NCBI GenBank assembly: GCA_020627685.1
Contig: JAHDGK010000013.1
Coordinates: forward strand, 1-64,000
Length of the DNA: 64,000 nt
DNA from: Granulosicoccus sp.
GTDB taxonomy: Bacteria; Pseudomonadota; Gammaproteobacteria; Granulosicoccales; Granulosicoccaceae
Direction: 5' to 3'
Under the pieces are notes generated by a model. It saw only the letters and a list, made by a program, of their open reading frames with translations, searched no databases and was not told where the DNA came from. Shown here piece after piece: positions 9,297-34,234 of the stretch. A program made the position numbers and the translations under genes. Numbering within the stretch: position 1 is the stretch's first letter; each line of letters starts with the position of its first letter.

Positions 9297-9915
9297 TCGC
9301 TTTTATCTGCCACGGCCCTCCCGGGTCTTTGCATTGCAGCCAGCACTGTGAGGCAGGATCAACATTGAATGTCATCGCGTCGGAAAGATCCCAGCCCAGA
9401 CACAGACAAACGAGTGCTCGAATAGAACCGCCGTGGGATATAACCGTCGCGGAAGCTTCGGTCTCTTGCTGCACACTGGTCAGCCACTCATTAAGCCATG
9501 ACTGACAGCGGTTGCATTGCTCATTGAACGTCTCACCGTTAGGGGGTGAGCGGTTGACCCAGTCTTCCCCCCACTTCGCGAGAATGTCCGGAGTGTTTTG
9601 ATGGACCTCATCCCAGGTTTGCCCTTCCCAATCGCCGAAGTCGAGCTCCACAAGCCGTTTATCGAATACAAGCTCAGGCAGCGAATACGAGCGTGTTGAT
9701 TCAAGAACGGTTCGGATAATATCGGCTGTTTCGCGAGTGCGTGTCATTGGACTGCAGAACCAATGAGTAGCCATGGCTTCGTGACGGAATGTCTTTGCCA
9801 AGGCATTAACTGATGCCCGACCCTTGTCTGATAAATCAATATCGGTGCGCCCTGCAACACCACCGGTGTCTGACCAGATCGTATGACCGTGGCGAACCAG
9901 ATGCAGGTTTATCAT
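9277..9915 (-). CDS. cobC: Histidine phosphatase, probable alpha-ribazole phosphatase
   Basis: The phosphoglycerate-mutase-like fold is shown by LVRHGHT at residues 5-11, the second arginine in the SPMTRTRETA motif, the GDWEGQTWDEV motif, and the late VISHGGSIRAL histidine. I place the start at the ATG at 9915, since it overlaps the cobS stop as ATGA and gives an N terminus typical of the family (212 residues). Removal of the 5'-phosphate of alpha-ribazole phosphate is inferred from its position after cobT and cobS; the fold alone also fits other phosphatases. Confidence 0.85.
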   Translation of the reverse strand: MINLHLVRHGHTIWSDTGGVAGRTDIDLSDKGRASVNALAKTFRHEAMATHWFCSPMTRTRETADIIRTVLESTRSYSLPELVFDKRLVELDFGDWEGQTWDEVHQNTPDILAKWGEDWVNRSPPNGETFNEQCNRCQSWLNEWLTSVQQETEASATVISHGGSIRALVCLCLGWDLSDAMTFNVDPASQCWLQCKDPGGPWQIKAINSLRF

Positions 9916-12610: not shown

Positions 12611-13858
12611 TCAATCACCTTTCTTTTTAAGTTTCTCAAATCCCTGGTGAATAATTGCGGTGGTTTGGTCCAGTCGAGGGTGAGACGCGCGGAACGAGGC
12701 GAAAAGATCGTCTTCTTTATCCATGGCTAAAAGCGTGTCTTTGAGTACATGAATAGCCGCTAACACGTCCCCCGTATGCCCGGATTCCGAGATGGTATGC
12801 ATATTTCGAGTTGGGAAACCAACGGACGTTGCAGCACTATCAACACTGGCCAACACAGCGGCCATGCCGTCTGTTCCTGTGTCGCGTCCGCTAACATCCA
12901 ACTGCATGGGAATGTCTGCAGCCATGGCAGCGCGTTTGATACGCGCATTGAGTTGCTCACTCACGATAGCGCCTGAAGACAAGGTAAAACCTTTGCCCAT
13001 TTCCAGCGGCTGCATATTTCGATCGCCGATGCTTGGTGCGGCGACATAATCATGATTGACATCAATGGCAATAAGAACGTCGGGGGCCATTTCACCCGCC
13101 AACACACGGCTGCCAAAACGACCGATTTCTTCATGCGATGCAATGGCATACAGCACGCGGATATTGTCGGTGCCGCCGGCTTCAGACACCAGGCGTGCCA
13201 CTTCAGCAGTAACAAAACATCCCAGCCCATTATCTAAGTAGGCGCCATAAAACGTGTCCGGACTGAATCCACGTTTGATAGGACGGTCGAGAATAATCGT
13301 ATCACCCGGCTTTAATCCCAATCGCTTGACCTGATCAGCTTTGTTCTCACCGTGTATTTGTAAATCCAAATACAGCGAATTGGGTCGAATGCCTTTGTCA
13401 CCCGTACGCTGAGCAGCATCAGAAAAGTGGATCGCACCCATCGCTTCGATAGTTCCGCCTTTGAGCGAACGATACTCACCGGGAACATCCGGGTTTTCAC
13501 TGAAAACAATCACTTCGTGTCCGATCAGAGTGCACGGTAAAAAAGAATCGCTATTGATGTAAACCTTGCCGTCCGCGGCAATCTTTCTTACCTGCATGCG
13601 GATTTTGTCGGCATGGCCAACGAGCATGACGCTGAACATATCGTCCTCACCCGGATGAGAATCCCACACGACACCGGCATTACCGACAAATTGGTGCATC
13701 TCCCAGGAATCAGGCATGAAGCTGTCGAAATAGGGTTTCAGCACACCCAGCGTCATGGCCGATTCTAAACCCACAGGACTGGGCGCTTTGAGAATGTCCC
13801 GCATGATGTCGAATTGTTCTTCGGGCATCGGGTTAGACCAAGGTTTACTTTGAGTCAT
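12611..13858 (-). CDS. M42-family (glutamyl/aspartyl-type) metallo-aminopeptidase
   Basis: The 415-residue protein has the co-catalytic dimetal site of the M42/M20 peptidases: VGHADKI (His and following acidic region), AYLDNGLG (bridging Asp), ASHEEIGRFG (catalytic Glu pair), AIDVNHD and, near the C terminus, RNMHTISE (His). An inserted beta domain follows the first His, as in M42 enzymes (residues about 95-200). It probably trims N-terminal residues from peptides in the cytoplasm. It is longer than typical M42 enzymes of 340-370 residues. No operon partner. Confidence 0.85.
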   Translation of the reverse strand: MTQSKPWSNPMPEEQFDIMRDILKAPSPVGLESAMTLGVLKPYFDSFMPDSWEMHQFVGNAGVVWDSHPGEDDMFSVMLVGHADKIRMQVRKIAADGKVYINSDSFLPCTLIGHEVIVFSENPDVPGEYRSLKGGTIEAMGAIHFSDAAQRTGDKGIRPNSLYLDLQIHGENKADQVKRLGLKPGDTIILDRPIKRGFSPDTFYGAYLDNGLGCFVTAEVARLVSEAGGTDNIRVLYAIASHEEIGRFGSRVLAGEMAPDVLIAIDVNHDYVAAPSIGDRNMQPLEMGKGFTLSSGAIVSEQLNARIKRAAMAADIPMQLDVSGRDTGTDGMAAVLASVDSAATSVGFPTRNMHTISESGHTGDVLAAIHVLKDTLLAMDKEDDLFASFRASHPRLDQTTAIIHQGFEKLKKKGD

Positions 13859-14976: not shown

Positions 14977-17820
14977 ATGAAAAAGATTTTCAGTGCAGCC
15001 CTACCCGCCATCGTGTCCACAGCTCTTATATTGAGTGCCTGCGGAGGAGGATCCAGCAGTTCAACACCAGGAACCACAGGTGGCGGATCCGATGGCACTA
15101 CCGATTCTGGAAACGGGGGTGGCGACGGCTCATCCACCGGAGGCGATAGCAGCTCACTGAGTCACGGCGGTACTGCTGTTCCTGTGAACAGTGTAGACCC
15201 AACGACAACCAGCTTCTTTTCAACCCGAGGCAGAGACAAGGCCGCAGCCTTGCCCGACAATCTTGCTGTCGTATTTGACGTTGTCGAAAACCACGGTGGT
15301 GATGCTTTCGCTTCCGGGACAACACCTAACTGCAGCAGCCTCGGTGCGCAATACAGTTCCTGCAGTATTTCAAATATACATATCAAGGATGCCACCGGAA
15401 CTCTAAACAGTGGTGACTGGAAGTTGTACTTTCACAGCATTCGCCGGGTGCTACGGGTCGACAGCAACGAATTCACCGTGACTCACGTTAATGGCGATTT
15501 AAATTACATCGAACCTTCAGCAGGCTTTCTTGGGTTTGATGGCAATGTTAAAACCATAGGCTTGGTCACGGAATACAACTACCTTATCGAATCAGACTTT
15601 ATGCCCCGCTACTGGTTAGTACGTGACAGCGGTGCAGTTACCGTCATTAACAACACGAATAACGATACGGACGAGTCTCAATACGCAACAACAATTTCTG
15701 GCGATAACCAACGAGCATTCAACGGTGAGCCTATTGATCTTGCTACCGCGTCAACACGATTTTCTAAAAACTCTGATATCGATGCCATTGCCGCTACTTT
15801 GAGTGCAACCGATATACAGTCGCGCATCATCCCCCGACCAAGCAGCATTGCTTTGGGTGCAGGTGTTTTGGACATCGGAGGAGGATTTTCCTTCTCAGGC
15901 ACGTCCCTTGATGCCGGTTCTGTTGCGGCACTAAACGCTCGTCAGGCACAATTTATGAGTACTGCTGCGGGAGTACCACTCACCGCCGTCATCGATTCTT
16001 CCATGGCAACAGACAGCTATACACTGTCAGTGGCAGCTGGCGGTATTAGCATGGCAGGTGCGGATCAACAATCATTGTTCTATGCGGCACAGTCGTTGTT
16101 GTCTCTTGTTCAACCCGGTGTTGGTACGATTCCATTCGTGAACATCAGTGATTCACCGCGGTTCGAATATCGCGGCATGCATGTCGATGTTGCCCGGAAC
16201 TTCCATTCAGTGGCATCCATACAACGGCTACTCGATCAGATGGCTGCTTACAAAATGAACAAACTTCATTTGCACTTAAGTGACGATGAAGGTTGGCGCT
16301 TGGAAATACCGTCACTACCGGAATTAACTAGCATAGGAGCCCGCCGCAGCTTCCAGCTCGATGCATCAGGTAATGTCACGGAATCAACGGGCCTAATGCC
16401 ACAACTTGGTTCAGGTCCGTCTACTGATAATCAAGGCACAGGCTTTTTCTCTCGCGCTCAATTTATTTCGCTCATTGAGTATGCGTTACAGCGACATATC
16501 CAGATTATTCCAGAGTTCGATATGCCGGCACACGCGCGTGCAGCTGTTGTTGCCATGCGTGTTCGTGCGCAAAACCTTGGTGACATCAACGATATAAATG
16601 TTCGACTTGATGATCCTGCAGATACCTCTAGATACCTGACCATTCAACACTACAACGATGGCATCCTTAATCCTTGCCTACCCGGTACATACAACTTTAT
16701 AGAAACGGTTATCACCGACGTACGATCCATGTACACAGCTGCCGGTGCTACCTTAGATACGTGGCACATGGGTGGCGATGAAGCCAACAATGTGTTTACC
16801 GGCGGTGGCTTTCAGGACGTGAACGCCGGTTCAAAAGTTCCTTGGCGCGGCGAGATTACACGCAGCGATTGGGATTTCCCGTGGGAAGCATCTCCGGCTT
16901 GCCAGACGTTTATTGCCAATACACCAGGTGTTAATTCTCGCGATGATCTGCAACCCTATTTCGTTAAAGAAGTTGCACAACGTGTAGCTGATGCAGGCAT
17001 AGCAACATTTTATGCGTATCAGGATATCTACGATGACATCAGTGCCAGCGAGTTAGCAACGTTAAACGCAGGTGTCGGCTATTGGGAGCCTGTGAGCACA
17101 TCAGCGGGTTATAACAATATCAATGGCTACTCGAACCGCGGCTTTGAAACATTAGTTGCCGTACCTGACTTTTTGTATTTCGATTTTCCACAAGAAGTTG
17201 ATCCAGAGGAACGAGGCTATTACTGGGCTACGCGATACACCGATACACGAAAAGTGTTCGGCTTTGCGCCGGAGAACCTTCCACAAAATGCAGAGACGTC
17301 TGTAAACCGCGACGGTAACAGTTGGACGGCAGCGGGCAATGCGACTAATCAAGGCTTTGTAGGCATGCAAGGGCAACTTTGGAGCGAGACGGTACGGACA
17401 CCCGAACAATTTGATTACATGGTCTTCCCTCGACTGCTGGCTTTAGCCGAGCGTGCCTGGTCAAGAGGTTCATGGGAGCAAGACTATGTGCCAGGTATCA
17501 CCTACTCTGGTACAACAAACCTTGTGGATAAAAATGCGTTGAACGATGACTACGCGAGGTTTGCAGCTGCCTTAGGTTATAAAGAACTCAGAAAGCTGGA
17601 TGCGGCAGGAATTCGTTACCGGGTATCCGTGCCTGGCGCCAGTGTCAATGGTGGTCAACTTAATATGAACAGTGACCTTCCGGGCTTACCTTTGGAATAC
17701 TCAACCGATGGAACGAGTTTCCAACCGTATACAGGTGTTACCTCGGCAGCAGGCGTCGTAGCGATTCGAGCGCGATCTGCCGACAATGCCAGAGCTGGCC
17801 GCGTAGACTCTGTAGAGTGA
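14977..17820 (+). CDS. GH20 beta-N-acetylhexosaminidase (chitobiase) lipoprotein
   Basis: The enzyme cleaves terminal N-acetylglucosamine from chitin oligosaccharides. I take the ATG at 14977 because it gives a clean lipoprotein signal with LSAC at residues 19-22; an upstream ATG at 14905 would overlap the divergent gene. After C22 comes a Gly/Ser/Thr linker, then a chitobiase N-terminal carbohydrate-binding domain, a GH20b domain (from IIPRPSSI), the GH20 barrel (EYRGMHVDVARNFH, LHLHLSDDEGWRLE) with catalytic D601-E602 in HMGGDE, and a C-terminal chitobiase-type domain. The 947-residue length fits marine chitobiases. The lipid anchor implies periplasmic or surface location. Confidence 0.93.
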   Translation: MKKIFSAALPAIVSTALILSACGGGSSSSTPGTTGGGSDGTTDSGNGGGDGSSTGGDSSSLSHGGTAVPVNSVDPTTTSFFSTRGRDKAAALPDNLAVVFDVVENHGGDAFASGTTPNCSSLGAQYSSCSISNIHIKDATGTLNSGDWKLYFHSIRRVLRVDSNEFTVTHVNGDLNYIEPSAGFLGFDGNVKTIGLVTEYNYLIESDFMPRYWLVRDSGAVTVINNTNNDTDESQYATTISGDNQRAFNGEPIDLATASTRFSKNSDIDAIAATLSATDIQSRIIPRPSSIALGAGVLDIGGGFSFSGTSLDAGSVAALNARQAQFMSTAAGVPLTAVIDSSMATDSYTLSVAAGGISMAGADQQSLFYAAQSLLSLVQPGVGTIPFVNISDSPRFEYRGMHVDVARNFHSVASIQRLLDQMAAYKMNKLHLHLSDDEGWRLEIPSLPELTSIGARRSFQLDASGNVTESTGLMPQLGSGPSTDNQGTGFFSRAQFISLIEYALQRHIQIIPEFDMPAHARAAVVAMRVRAQNLGDINDINVRLDDPADTSRYLTIQHYNDGILNPCLPGTYNFIETVITDVRSMYTAAGATLDTWHMGGDEANNVFTGGGFQDVNAGSKVPWRGEITRSDWDFPWEASPACQTFIANTPGVNSRDDLQPYFVKEVAQRVADAGIATFYAYQDIYDDISASELATLNAGVGYWEPVSTSAGYNNINGYSNRGFETLVAVPDFLYFDFPQEVDPEERGYYWATRYTDTRKVFGFAPENLPQNAETSVNRDGNSWTAAGNATNQGFVGMQGQLWSETVRTPEQFDYMVFPRLLALAERAWSRGSWEQDYVPGITYSGTTNLVDKNALNDDYARFAAALGYKELRKLDAAGIRYRVSVPGASVNGGQLNMNSDLPGLPLEYSTDGTSFQPYTGVTSAAGVVAIRARSADNARAGRVDSVE

Positions 17821-19479: not shown

Positions 19480-20922
19480 ATGTTGTACAACCGCAAAAAA
19501 CGCGTCTCCTCGAGGCCCGTAACGGCTGCGTCTTATTTGGTTTTCATAGCGCTAGCCAGTTGTGCCAAAGCTGCTGACCCGGAGCTTTTCAGAGCGGATC
19601 CAAACCTCTTTGACGATCAAACGCTCAGCCTCCCCACCACGGGAAGTTCCGGGGGATTTAACTATGAAATCATCCAGGGATTCGCCGTATTCGAGGGTGA
19701 TATCTTGCTGGGAAAGGTAGATCACACTGGCTCAGTCCCGCAAAAGTTAATGCCACGTGGACTAGGCCGTAGCGACGCTTTCGGGCGCTGGCCTGACGGC
19801 ATCGTTCCGTACCAGGCTCCGACGGATAACTCAACAACGCAACAAGATAGAATTGCGCAGGCGATTGAACACTGGACTGCGAATACCAATATAAGCTTCG
19901 TCGAGCGCACATCGGAGAATCAGGATCAATATCCTAACTACCTCAGATTCGACTCCAGTAACAGCTGTGCATCTTATGTGGGTATGCAAGGTGGAGGTCA
20001 GTCGGTGCTCGTGTCAGATGCCTGTTCCACCGGTAGCATCATCCACGAAATAGGACATGCGCTAGGGTTGTTTCACGAACATACACGGCCTGATCGTGAC
20101 AACTTCGCTCAAATTAACTGGGATGAAATTGTAGCCGGTAAAGAAATCAACTTCGATATTCTTGAGGCCGGGGTGGAGAATTTCGGCCCATACGACTATG
20201 GCTCGATCATGCACTATGGAGAATACTTCTTCAGCGCTACCGGTTTACGAACCATCACGGTTCCCGACGGAATCAGCATAGGACAAAGAACCAGCTTAAG
20301 TGATTTAGACGCAAGCGCAATCAATGAAATGTATGCCACAGATTTAGCCTTGTTTGAACCTACGCTAAATACAGTGGCGTCGGGCTTGGAAATCGGTATC
20401 AGCATTGCAAATCAAGGACAATTGGGCGCGAACCAACTGGAGCTTGTCGCAACAGCAGACGGAGGTTCCCAGTGGCAAGGTATATCGCAGGAGAGCGACT
20501 GGAACTGCACTTCTATCGCAGCTGAACTTACCTGCACGAGAGATACACTGAGTGAACAGTCTGAGTCCAGATTTACGTTGCTTTTGAATCCTGCCACTGA
20601 GGATAACAACCTCAGCTTGACACTGAGTTCACGTACCGGCGATACCGATTTAAGTAACAACACATTCAACGACATTGTTACCGAACCGACACCGCAGGAA
20701 CCTGCTGACCAACCAACGACAACACCTACGCCTGAACCAACACCCACCACGACACCTACAACCGAACCTACCCCGGCACCGGTAGAAGAAACTCCGGCAC
20801 TTGGCGCTGCGTCAGGCGGTGCTGCTAGTGCAGGATCAGAGAACGGTGCAATCGCAGTTATCGCTGGCATGGCCCTTCTTTGGCAAAGGCGAAGACGGTT
20901 AGTAATCAAGGACGCACACTAG
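19480..20922 (+). CDS. Secreted astacin-type (M12A) metalloprotease with C-terminal anchoring tail
   Basis: The zinc-binding signature HEIGHALGLFHEHTRPDRD begins at H189 (ligands H189, H193, H199) and the Met-turn SIMHYG follows about 50 residues later; both are diagnostic for astacins. The N terminus is a signal peptide containing LASC, so it may be a lipoprotein, although a signal peptidase I site after CAKA is also possible. After the catalytic domain come a beta-rich domain (about 290-400), a Pro/Thr/Glu-rich linker, and a tail with small residues, one hydrophobic helix and an RRRR cluster, similar in layout to GlyGly-CTERM sorting signals. Likely an exported protein degrader. Confidence 0.88.
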   Translation: MLYNRKKRVSSRPVTAASYLVFIALASCAKAADPELFRADPNLFDDQTLSLPTTGSSGGFNYEIIQGFAVFEGDILLGKVDHTGSVPQKLMPRGLGRSDAFGRWPDGIVPYQAPTDNSTTQQDRIAQAIEHWTANTNISFVERTSENQDQYPNYLRFDSSNSCASYVGMQGGGQSVLVSDACSTGSIIHEIGHALGLFHEHTRPDRDNFAQINWDEIVAGKEINFDILEAGVENFGPYDYGSIMHYGEYFFSATGLRTITVPDGISIGQRTSLSDLDASAINEMYATDLALFEPTLNTVASGLEIGISIANQGQLGANQLELVATADGGSQWQGISQESDWNCTSIAAELTCTRDTLSEQSESRFTLLLNPATEDNNLSLTLSSRTGDTDLSNNTFNDIVTEPTPQEPADQPTTTPTPEPTPTTTPTTEPTPAPVEETPALGAASGGAASAGSENGAIAVIAGMALLWQRRRRLVIKDAH

Positions 20923-20995
20923 CCACACGTAGCCTCGAATACGGTTGATGAAATCCATCTTCTTGTACTCGCCTTAGGTGAATAAATAGCGTTAC

Positions 20996-21028
20996 CATGG
21001 AAGGAATCATCTATCGATTCCTTCCATG
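20996..21028 (+). promoter_or_regulatory. Perfect 13-bp inverted repeat containing the lpxB start codon
   Basis: CATGGAAGGAATC (20996-21008) and GATTCCTTCCATG (21016-21028) are exact inverted copies around a 7-base loop. The last three bases are the lpxB ATG. A short frame from the ATG at 20997 (ten codons) ends with TGA at 21027-21029, overlapping the lpxB start as ATGA. No ordinary ribosome-binding site precedes lpxB. Structure seen; translational control inferred. Confidence 0.6.
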
Positions 21029-22171
21029 AGTTCTTCGAAGAAACTATCCATCATGGTGTCCGCCGGAGAAGCCTCCAGCGATGCACATGCGGCCCACGCT
21101 TTGGATGCGCTAAGCCACCTGGGTACCCCGTTCGACAGCTTCGGTATGGGTGCAGGTGAATTGAAAGACGCGGGCACCGAGCTCATTGTAGATTGTCGTG
21201 ATTTGGCGGTTATCGGTATCGTCGATGTATTACTCAACTACCACAAGTTTCTGAAGCGACTGCGGCAGCTCAGGAAAACAATGAAGGCACGTAAACCTGA
21301 TTTGCTCCTGCTCGTTGACTACCCCGATTTCAATTTAAAACTTGCTGAGACCGCGAAATCGCTCAACATCCCCGTACTGTTTTACGTCAGTCCACAGGTA
21401 TGGGCTTGGCGAGCAGGCCGGGTGCCTCGTATTGGAAGCCTGGTATCGCACATGGCAGTCTTGTTTCCGTTTGAAGTTGAGATATATCAAAAACACAACA
21501 TACCCGTTAGCTACGTAGGCAATCCGGTTGTCGCCGATGCCGTCTCATCGATGTCTAAAGCCGAAGCCTGCGATCATTTTCAGTTAGACAGCAACTACCC
21601 TGTCGTCTCTCTATTACCCGGTAGCCGTAGCGGCGAAATCGCCAGAAACCTGCAACCCATGCTGGCCAGTGCAAACCTGATTGCGAAGCAAATACCTAAT
21701 TGTCAGTTCCTTCTGCCAGTGGCCCCGACACTTGAGCTTTCAGATGTTGAAAAAGCTGCCGAGAATTCCCCGGATAACTTACACATCCTGAGTGTGAACT
21801 CCCGGGATGCCATGCGAGCCGCTGATGTTGCACTAGTCGCATCTGGCACAGCAACCTTAGAAACAGCGCTGATAGGAACCCCTATGGTCGTCATGTACAT
21901 CGTCAATAAAATAAATTATGCGATCATGAAACGGCTTATAAAAATTCCCGATATTTCTTTAGTTAATATTGTGGCGGGTAAGAGGATTGTTCCTGAACTC
22001 GTGCAAGAAGATGCAACACCGGAAGCGATGGCAGAACATGTCATCAGTTTATTAAACGATGAAGAACAACGTGCAGTCATGCTACGCGAATTAAACGACG
22101 TCAAGCTGAAAATGGGAGACGCAGGAGCCTCTGAAAGAGTGGCAAAATTGATTCTGCAACTTGCCCGGTAA
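21026..22171 (+). CDS. lpxB: Lipid-A-disaccharide synthase
   Basis: This inner-membrane-associated glycosyltransferase joins UDP-diacylglucosamine and lipid X. Motifs are VSAGEASSDAHAAH at about 10-23, GIGMG-like FGMGAGEL, LVDYPDFNLKLA near 93-104, YVSPQVWAWRAGR near 125-137 and LLPGSRSGEI near 197-206. Normal length (381). The usual lpxD-fabZ-lpxA-lpxB order is broken: lpxB lies next to lpxA but on the opposite strand, so the two are convergent with 49 bases between. The start codon is inside a strong hairpin. Confidence 0.96.
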   Translation: MSSSKKLSIMVSAGEASSDAHAAHALDALSHLGTPFDSFGMGAGELKDAGTELIVDCRDLAVIGIVDVLLNYHKFLKRLRQLRKTMKARKPDLLLLVDYPDFNLKLAETAKSLNIPVLFYVSPQVWAWRAGRVPRIGSLVSHMAVLFPFEVEIYQKHNIPVSYVGNPVVADAVSSMSKAEACDHFQLDSNYPVVSLLPGSRSGEIARNLQPMLASANLIAKQIPNCQFLLPVAPTLELSDVEKAAENSPDNLHILSVNSRDAMRAADVALVASGTATLETALIGTPMVVMYIVNKINYAIMKRLIKIPDISLVNIVAGKRIVPELVQEDATPEAMAEHVISLLNDEEQRAVMLRELNDVKLKMGDAGASERVAKLILQLAR

Positions 22172-22220: not shown

Positions 22221-22991
22221 CTAGCGAACAACACCTCGTTCGCTATTTTCAACAAATTCGATGAGTCGCGCCACTTCAGGAAATTCTGAAGCCTCTTTGC
22301 TTAATGCTGCAATGGCATTGCTTCGCTCCCCGTGCTGTCGAATCAAAATTTTGTAAGCTCGGTGTAAAGCTGCAATCGTTTCATCTGAAAAATCCCGACG
22401 CCTTAGCCCGTTTTTGTTGATCCCCTTTCCTTCTGCGTAATTGCCTACGGCAAGCGTAAACGGGCAAACATCGCGATTCGCCACAGAATTAAGGCCAACA
22501 AATGCATGCTCACCGATTTCGCAAAATTGATGTACGCATGCAAAACCTGCCAGTATGGCGTGGGTTCCGACGGTCACGTGGCCAGCCAACGATGCGCTGT
22601 TAGCCATGATGATGTTGTCCGCGATAATACAATCGTGAGCGACATGGATATAGGCCATAAAAAGATTATTGTTACCGATTCGGGTGATACCCCCACCACC
22701 CTCAGTACCCCGGTTTATCGTGGCAAATTCACGAATCGTGTTGCCATCTCCAATTTCAAGATGAGTACGTTCACCAGCGTACTTTAAATCCTGTGGGTCA
22801 TCGCCAACGGAGGCAAACTGAAATATTTTGTTATTCGAGCCAATTCTGGTTGGCCCTTTAATAACAACATGCGGCCCGATGACAGTCCCTGAGCCGATAA
22901 CGACGTCGGCGCCGATGATGCTGTAAGCCCCGACTTCACAATCATCCGCCACTTTAGCGGAAGAATCGACAATGGCAGTTGAATGAATCAA
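22221..22991 (-). CDS. lpxA: UDP-N-acetylglucosamine acyltransferase
   Basis: It catalyses the first step of lipid A synthesis. The left-handed beta-helix repeats (for example [14 protein letters not shown]) fill the first 190 residues; the catalytic His lies in AYIHVAHDC. The helical C-terminal part starts at about 195. The start is TTG at 22991, which overlaps the fabZ stop as TTGA and gives the typical [10 protein letters not shown] terminus. Last gene of the long minus-strand envelope operon. Confidence 0.96.
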
Positions 22992-34094: not shown

Positions 34095-34234
34095 GTTCAT
34101 TCCTCTCTTTGAATCTGTTGTCCGGACCACCTTTTGGGATTGGGCCGAACCTGAATTGGGATTTCGCTCAAGCCCGTGGGTACACGGGCTTGAGCGGTAT
34201 TACAGTACTCAGACGCCCATAGGCGCCCGGCGAC

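Follow-up and report, generated by a model that had tools for sequence, protein, structure and literature searches.

The start codon of lpxB in the Granulosicoccus sp. DNA analyzed here (a stretch of 64,000 nucleotides, referred to below as the window) forms the end of a perfect inverted repeat that has been kept as a structure in related genomes and is probably a real lock on translation. The hairpin likely acts at the RNA level and is probably not the leader-peptide switch that was first proposed for it. Our preferred explanation, drawn from sequence comparison and computed RNA folding, is that the repeat is an RNA lock on lpxB against read-through and is opened in a transcript from a local promoter; we put this forward tentatively, as a possible rather than a probable account. 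The features of the region are the following:

19480 to 20922, forward strand: gene for an astacin-type (M12A) metallopeptidase (PF01400), upstream of lpxB and co-directional with it
20985 to 20999, forward strand: conserved block AATAGCGTTACCATG, from an alignment of seven loci
20991 to 20998, forward strand: putative -10-like box G.TA..AT (here GTTACCAT), with a predicted transcript start at about 21005
20996 to 21008, forward strand: left arm of the hairpin, 13 nt, which shares three bases with the end of the -10-like box and contains the ATG of the short frame
20997 to 21029, forward strand: possible 10-codon frame MEGIIYRFLP, from the ATG at 20997 to the TGA at 21027 to 21029, overlapping lpxB as ATGA
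21009 to 21015, forward strand: loop, 7 nt
21016 to 21028, forward strand: right arm, which ends in CATG, its last three bases being the lpxB ATG (21026)
21026 to 22171, forward strand: lpxB, lipid-A-disaccharide synthase, 381 amino acids (TIGR00215, E 2.9e-90, above cut-off; PF02684, E 1.4e-94)
22221 to 22991, reverse strand: lpxA, convergent with lpxB, an arrangement also found in relatives

The arms of the repeat (20996 to 21028) are 13 nt each, 100% complementary and 7 nt apart. The original prediction had described this 13-bp repeat, its 7-base loop and the ending of the second copy on the lpxB ATG, and all of its coordinates were right. A background sample of 407,921 bases of the same genome (the window and 20 further stretches of an assembly of 4.93 Mb in 117 contigs) contained 26 perfect hairpins (arm length of at least 10, loop of 3 to 12); in three of them the arms reach 13 or more. 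Four other hairpins among the 26 touch a possible start codon; three of these starts look internal or belong to short overlapping frames, and the remaining one, in stretch L087, could be a true start. From -1000 to +400 of lpxB, the repeat is the sole perfect hairpin of at least 9 bp in the window and in each of two relatives with the same hairpin, L032 and L074. The inverted repeat at the lpxB start is not due to chance.

Several other origins for such a repeat were considered and rejected. An intrinsic terminator was rejected because no T run follows the stem; the bases after it are AGTTCTTC, and no terminator-like site was found in 20700 to 21300. The repeat is single copy in its own genome, which argues against a mobile or repeated element. 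A search of Rfam with positions 20800 to 21300 returned only two matches, with E values of 2 and 6.2, both far under the gathering score, so a described RNA family was rejected as well. The GGA of a CsrA site is present in the left arm, but by eye it lies in the stem instead of the loop. An assembly fold-back artifact was ruled out because three separate assemblies show different letters with identical geometry.

RNA folding sets the lpxB start apart from other starts in the genome. The region from -35 to +10 of lpxB folds at -21.3 kcal/mol, compared with a mean of -5.3 kcal/mol (standard deviation, 2.8; lowest, -13.4) for 49 genes with unambiguous starts, and the z-score of the fold in the window is -3.9 over 91 nt and -6.15 over 45 nt. 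Only three of 1,772 candidate starts folded as low as lpxB; without the overlap filter there were four of 1,945, namely lpxB itself, one start in L084 and two neighboring starts that belong to a single frame in L098. The computed probability that the lpxB AUG is open in a 120-nt RNA is 0.003 in the window and 0.001 to 0.071 across all eight orthologs that have a hairpin at the start. These values support the earlier claim that the start codon is sequestered, and by computation the codon is base-paired in a long transcript, as in a lock of the phage T4 gene e type. A shut AUG alone proves little, because the AUG of one relative, L038, is shut (0.017) although that locus has no local stem. The earlier observation that lpxB has no Shine-Dalgarno sequence was also borne out, in that no match of 4 nt or more was found. 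This absence is ordinary, because 27 of the 49 unambiguous-start genes in the sampled DNA of the same genome are also without a 4-base match, and the missing Shine-Dalgarno sequence was therefore rejected as a special feature of lpxB.

Other structures were seen in the same genome. An inverted repeat of 14 bp, perfect and with a loop of 4 bases, CGCTCAAGCCCGTG/CACGGGCTTGAGCG, lies at positions 34165 to 34196 of the window and has no T run after it. Perfect hairpins at 9843 to 9868 of L093 and 4836 to 4868 of L094 have a common arm core, TGATCAAC/GTTGATCA, and both are within reading frames. The L087 hairpin (12726 to 12749; 10 bp, loop of 4) holds possible starts at 12747 and 12729 of a long reverse-strand frame, both computed to be shut (0.001); this frame continues without a stop as far as 12831 on its upstream side, and Pfam gave no match for it. 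On the reverse strand of L098, two adjacent candidate starts of a 365-codon frame, at 16090 and 16087, fold more strongly than lpxB (-26.7 and -24.5 kcal/mol).

Of 27 genomes of the genus, among them that of the window, 26 yielded lpxB, and the upstream DNA was read at 29 of 30 lpxB loci and at L074; L011 was left out as it begins inside the gene. The left arm has an identical place and geometry in L032 and L074. In L074 the hairpin is again perfect, with 13 bp, a loop of 7 and the same register on the ATG, and in L032 the register is the same and 12 of the 13 pairs are kept, one as U-G. Among these three genomes, on which the window's hairpin group rests, three of the 13 pairs have changed on both sides and 97.4% of the cells in the stem alignment pair. 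One further stem change is from C-G to U-G, a change that RNA pairing tolerates. The 97.4% pairing was equalled by eight of 500 shuffles. Four-fold sites differ at 67 to 73% among the three genomes, and in the DNA from -110 to -45 only 17 to 23 of 66 ungapped positions agree. Neutral sites are thus near saturation while the stem is still paired, and therefore the structure has been held under divergence. The loop ends in C in the window; in L032 and L074 it ends in T, giving a complete TGA. The alignment of these sequences demonstrates that the hairpin is conserved, and the compensatory changes that the original prediction proposed to look for in relatives were found. In a tree of LpxB, the window and L032 form a pair (99/95), and L074, for which only 154 residues are available, stands beside them without firm grouping.

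A second group of loci (L033, L034, L035, L007, and L009) buries the lpxB start in an unrelated stem of nine pairs and one mismatch. These stems end on a start that consists of two tandem ATGs, and they are weakly better than shuffled sequences (z-scores of -1.3 to -1.8). The LpxB clade to which these loci belong has 13 readable members, of which eight have a start hairpin, four have none (L036, L037, L038, and L027, which is the same as L051) and one is ambiguous. L023 (the same as L048) was counted apart because its start codon is not settled between two candidates, a GTG computed to be shut (0.002) and an ATG computed to be open (0.42). Both L023 and L027 lie within the clade on a long branch, and L040, which begins inside lpxB, was left out of the count. 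The original prediction held that relatives lacking the repeat would speak against it; the repeat is kept in L032 and L074 but a start hairpin is missing from the four clade members named above. In L025, a perfect 8-bp hairpin (loop of 6) that begins 4 nt before the lpxB match has the likely start within its left arm.

The gene upstream of lpxB provides a possible source of read-through transcripts. In the window the peptidase gene stops 103 nt before lpxB, and no terminator was found between the two. A relative of the peptidase is upstream of lpxB in most of the loci compared; its aligned part ends about 0.3 to 0.4 kb before lpxB in hairpin-bearing loci and 1.3 to 1.9 kb before it in 11 other loci. 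In L036 (genome G001), which is without the start hairpin, the peptidase frame crosses the site of the short leader and overlaps lpxB by 56 nt. The peptidase encoded in the window ends in a Gly/Ser-rich stretch, a hydrophobic segment and an arginine-rich terminus, features that we take to resemble C-terminal sorting signals. The idea that lpxB was recently inverted away from an operon was rejected, as lpxB and lpxA are convergent in every relative that has lpxA on the examined DNA.

Sequence just upstream of the hairpin is also conserved. Between pairs of the window, L032, and L074, 11 to 13 of the 14 bases before the hairpin are kept; the consensus of the aligned block at seven loci is AATARSGnTAnnATG, and AATARCGNTANNATG has one exact match in the window's own genome. 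The -10-like box within this block keeps its position, -32 to -34 relative to the lpxB ATG, in nine of 11 orthologs tested, including all eight with the hairpin as well as L036 without it, against a background rate of 0.0005 per position for a box that was selected after the alignment had been inspected. In position and letters the box resembles an extended -10 element. TACCAT is a poor -10 sequence, no -35 hexamer is kept across the orthologs, and a simple consensus promoter scan returned no promoter. We infer from its conservation that the box may be a local promoter.

The box reaches into the first bases of the left arm and also overlaps the ATG with which the short frame opens. An RNA that started seven bases past the box would have its left arm cut in all eight hairpin orthologs, losing nine of 13 left-arm bases in the window's group and three of 10 in the second group. 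Modeling of such RNAs suggests that the lpxB AUG would be closed in long transcripts and more open in short ones. For the more open lpxB ATG, the computed value climbs in seven of the eight orthologs from at most 0.07 in an RNA beginning at -60 to between 0.20 and 0.77 at the predicted start, a range that spans the median of 0.43 for the 49 comparison genes. The exception is L035, whose two ATGs remain closed in the short RNA (0.11 and 0.04). A single base decides the result in the window, with an openness of 0.03 for a start at -22 and 0.25 for a start at -21. The original prediction considered that a transcript start downstream of 21008, which removes the left arm, would count against it; the predicted start near 21005 is upstream of that limit, yet an RNA beginning there would lack the leader ATG and nine of the left arm's 13 bases. 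In L037, a -10-like hexamer, TAGAATACCTCCATG, occupies positions -12 to -7 relative to the lpxB ATG, and a start seven bases on would be the lpxB ATG itself, giving a leaderless mRNA.

These features can be combined into a mechanism. Transcripts entering from upstream, for example from the peptidase gene, would carry the whole 13-bp stem, which would bury the lpxB AUG, itself without a Shine-Dalgarno sequence, and shut translation. Transcription from the putative local promoter at 20991 to 20998 would start near 21005, and the resulting short mRNA, lacking nine of the 13 left-arm bases, would leave the lpxB AUG usable. In that case lpxB output would be set by the gene's own promoter and shielded from read-through. 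We infer both that read-through reaches lpxB and that the output of LpxB is affected. The transposase genes of IS10 and IS50 are shielded from outside transcription in such a manner, with a stem that is present in read-through RNA alone hiding the start; these stems are at the ends of mobile elements, unlike the lpxB repeat, which is single copy in the window's genome.

Phage T4 gene e offers a close parallel. According to the part of PMC3014915 that we draw on, late transcripts of gene e without the 5' part of the stem are well translated, late promoters of phages related to T4 lie in the region that encodes the 5' stem strand, and start-sequestering hairpins also occur at soc, 49, and I-TevI (for I-TevI, see also the portion used of PMC2988022). 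The likeness to the proposed read-through lock is that the stem shuts the start region in long read-through transcripts and that a promoter at the DNA of the 5' strand, putative for lpxB, would give transcripts lacking this strand. The T4 cases, as presented there, concern genes of a phage, transcribed from late promoters and with transcript ends that have been mapped, whereas lpxB is a chromosomal biosynthesis gene without a Shine-Dalgarno sequence and with a putative promoter.

The original prediction was that translation of lpxB is coupled to a leader peptide. In an amended form of this idea, ribosomes that terminate after 6 to 10 codons near the lpxB AUG would open the stem and restart without a Shine-Dalgarno sequence, of which lpxB has none. 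The frame MEGIIYRFLP exists as described, from 20997 to the TGA at 21027 to 21029 with the ATGA overlap, and all eight hairpin orthologs have an ATG 27 to 30 nt upstream whose frame closes somewhere from 9 nt short of lpxB to 4 nt inside it, so that its stop is within 9 nt of the lpxB start. However, a stem that ends in CATG on the lpxB ATG produces an upstream ATG automatically because CATG is its own complement, and the 10-codon form with its ATGA overlap was found only in the window. The frames of the other seven orthologs have six codons and a TGA 8 or 9 nt before the lpxB ATG, or 6 nt from the first of two tandem ATGs where these are present, and in the second group the short frame is in the lpxB reading frame. 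The leader peptides vary in sequence and in length (MEGIIYRFLP, MGGILY, MGAIDH, MLIIHQ in two loci, MLIIHS, MPIIHH, and MAIIHQ). The sequestered start thus stands and the stem is kept in relatives, but leader length, peptide, and overlap are not. In L036 the ATG at the place of the short leader falls in the peptidase frame that runs 56 nt into lpxB. The leader ATG of the window has a 5-base Shine-Dalgarno match, AGGTG (20976 to 20980), but at 16 nt away it is far for a Shine-Dalgarno sequence. Most directly, the self-complementary CATG pairs the leader AUG with the lpxB AUG in the window, L032, and L074 (computed open probability, 0.003 to 0.006), and therefore translation of the leader would need a stem that is already open; by computation, the leader could hardly be initiated in these three loci while the lpxB start is shut. 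Leader AUGs are accessible in the five second-group loci (0.34 to 0.48), and coupling is more plausible there. For the hairpin as a whole we consider coupling to a very short frame unlikely.

Paired changes in a stem do not speak for RNA alone. If a dimeric regulator bound the palindrome as a DNA operator, covering the -10-like box and the transcript start, paired changes would also be expected, because both half-sites follow one changing protein. The half-site centers are 20 bp apart, and a site over the -10 box is typical of a repressor. However, no second site within three mismatches was found in the window's own genome. A relaxed half-site pattern gave 2, 3, and 3 extra two-mismatch sites in three genomes (1, 0, and 0 for a reversed-pattern control), but by eye these extra sites are not palindromes of this kind. 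An operator also leaves the exact end of the stem on the ATG without a reason, and in the second group this start codon is buried by another stem. An operator is accordingly a less credible account than coupling, and we regard it as quite unlikely. Template switching, in which one arm is copied onto the other, produces paired changes in a single step, and functionless turnover of a palindrome by this route would accord with the four of 13 readable clade members that manage without a hairpin. Against turnover, the 13/7 geometry and the register on the ATG are the same in three genomes whose neutral sites are near saturation, no other perfect hairpin of comparable length surrounds lpxB in these genomes, and a firmly shut start codon should be selected against if nothing is gained from it. 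Turnover is the least likely of the explanations and seems improbable. The read-through lock, in which the stem would close long transcripts and a promoter at the left arm would supply an open one, remains the account that we prefer.

Coupling to short open reading frames is itself a known general pattern, as the sections used of PMC5574718, PMC12548453, and PMC8876359 describe, and includes E. coli iraD and integron ORF-11. In E. coli, iraD is translationally coupled to the short upstream ORF27 and a structure sequesters the Shine-Dalgarno sequence (PMC5574718, in the part used). As at lpxB in the window, the stop of the short ORF overlaps the main start (at lpxB as ATGA) and a stem sequesters initiation signals; in that part of the paper, however, ORF27 has its own Shine-Dalgarno sequence, is translated and is controlled by CsrA. 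At lpxB, unlike iraD, the stem contains the leader ATG, the sole Shine-Dalgarno match of the leader lies 16 nt from it, and relatives do not share the overlap. ORF-11 of integron attI1 is a very short ORF that couples starts poor in Shine-Dalgarno sequence, and its amino acids matter little (PMC8876359, in the text examined). It resembles the lpxB leader in preceding starts without a Shine-Dalgarno sequence but differs in having a good one of its own, and the text examined of PMC8876359 describes no stem that shares both AUGs.

No such control of lpxB was found in the literature as covered here by titles and the openings of abstracts, with subscription journals thinly represented. For lipid A synthesis, the best-known point of control is LpxC. 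Start-sequestering stems are of an already known kind, and our comparison suggests that the lpxB case would be new to that kind. The broadest form of the proposal is that a lipid A gene is insulated from its neighbor, with a start lock that is kept as a structure, unrelated stems in sister lineages, an unlocked message that comes only from a promoter at the left arm, and an output that depends on which promoter is used; as a combined claim this is rather doubtful. A conserved lock on lpxB translation would, if true, be another control point in lipid A synthesis and a chromosomal counterpart of a phage device, and it would show how a gene avoids being expressed by a neighbor that reads into it.
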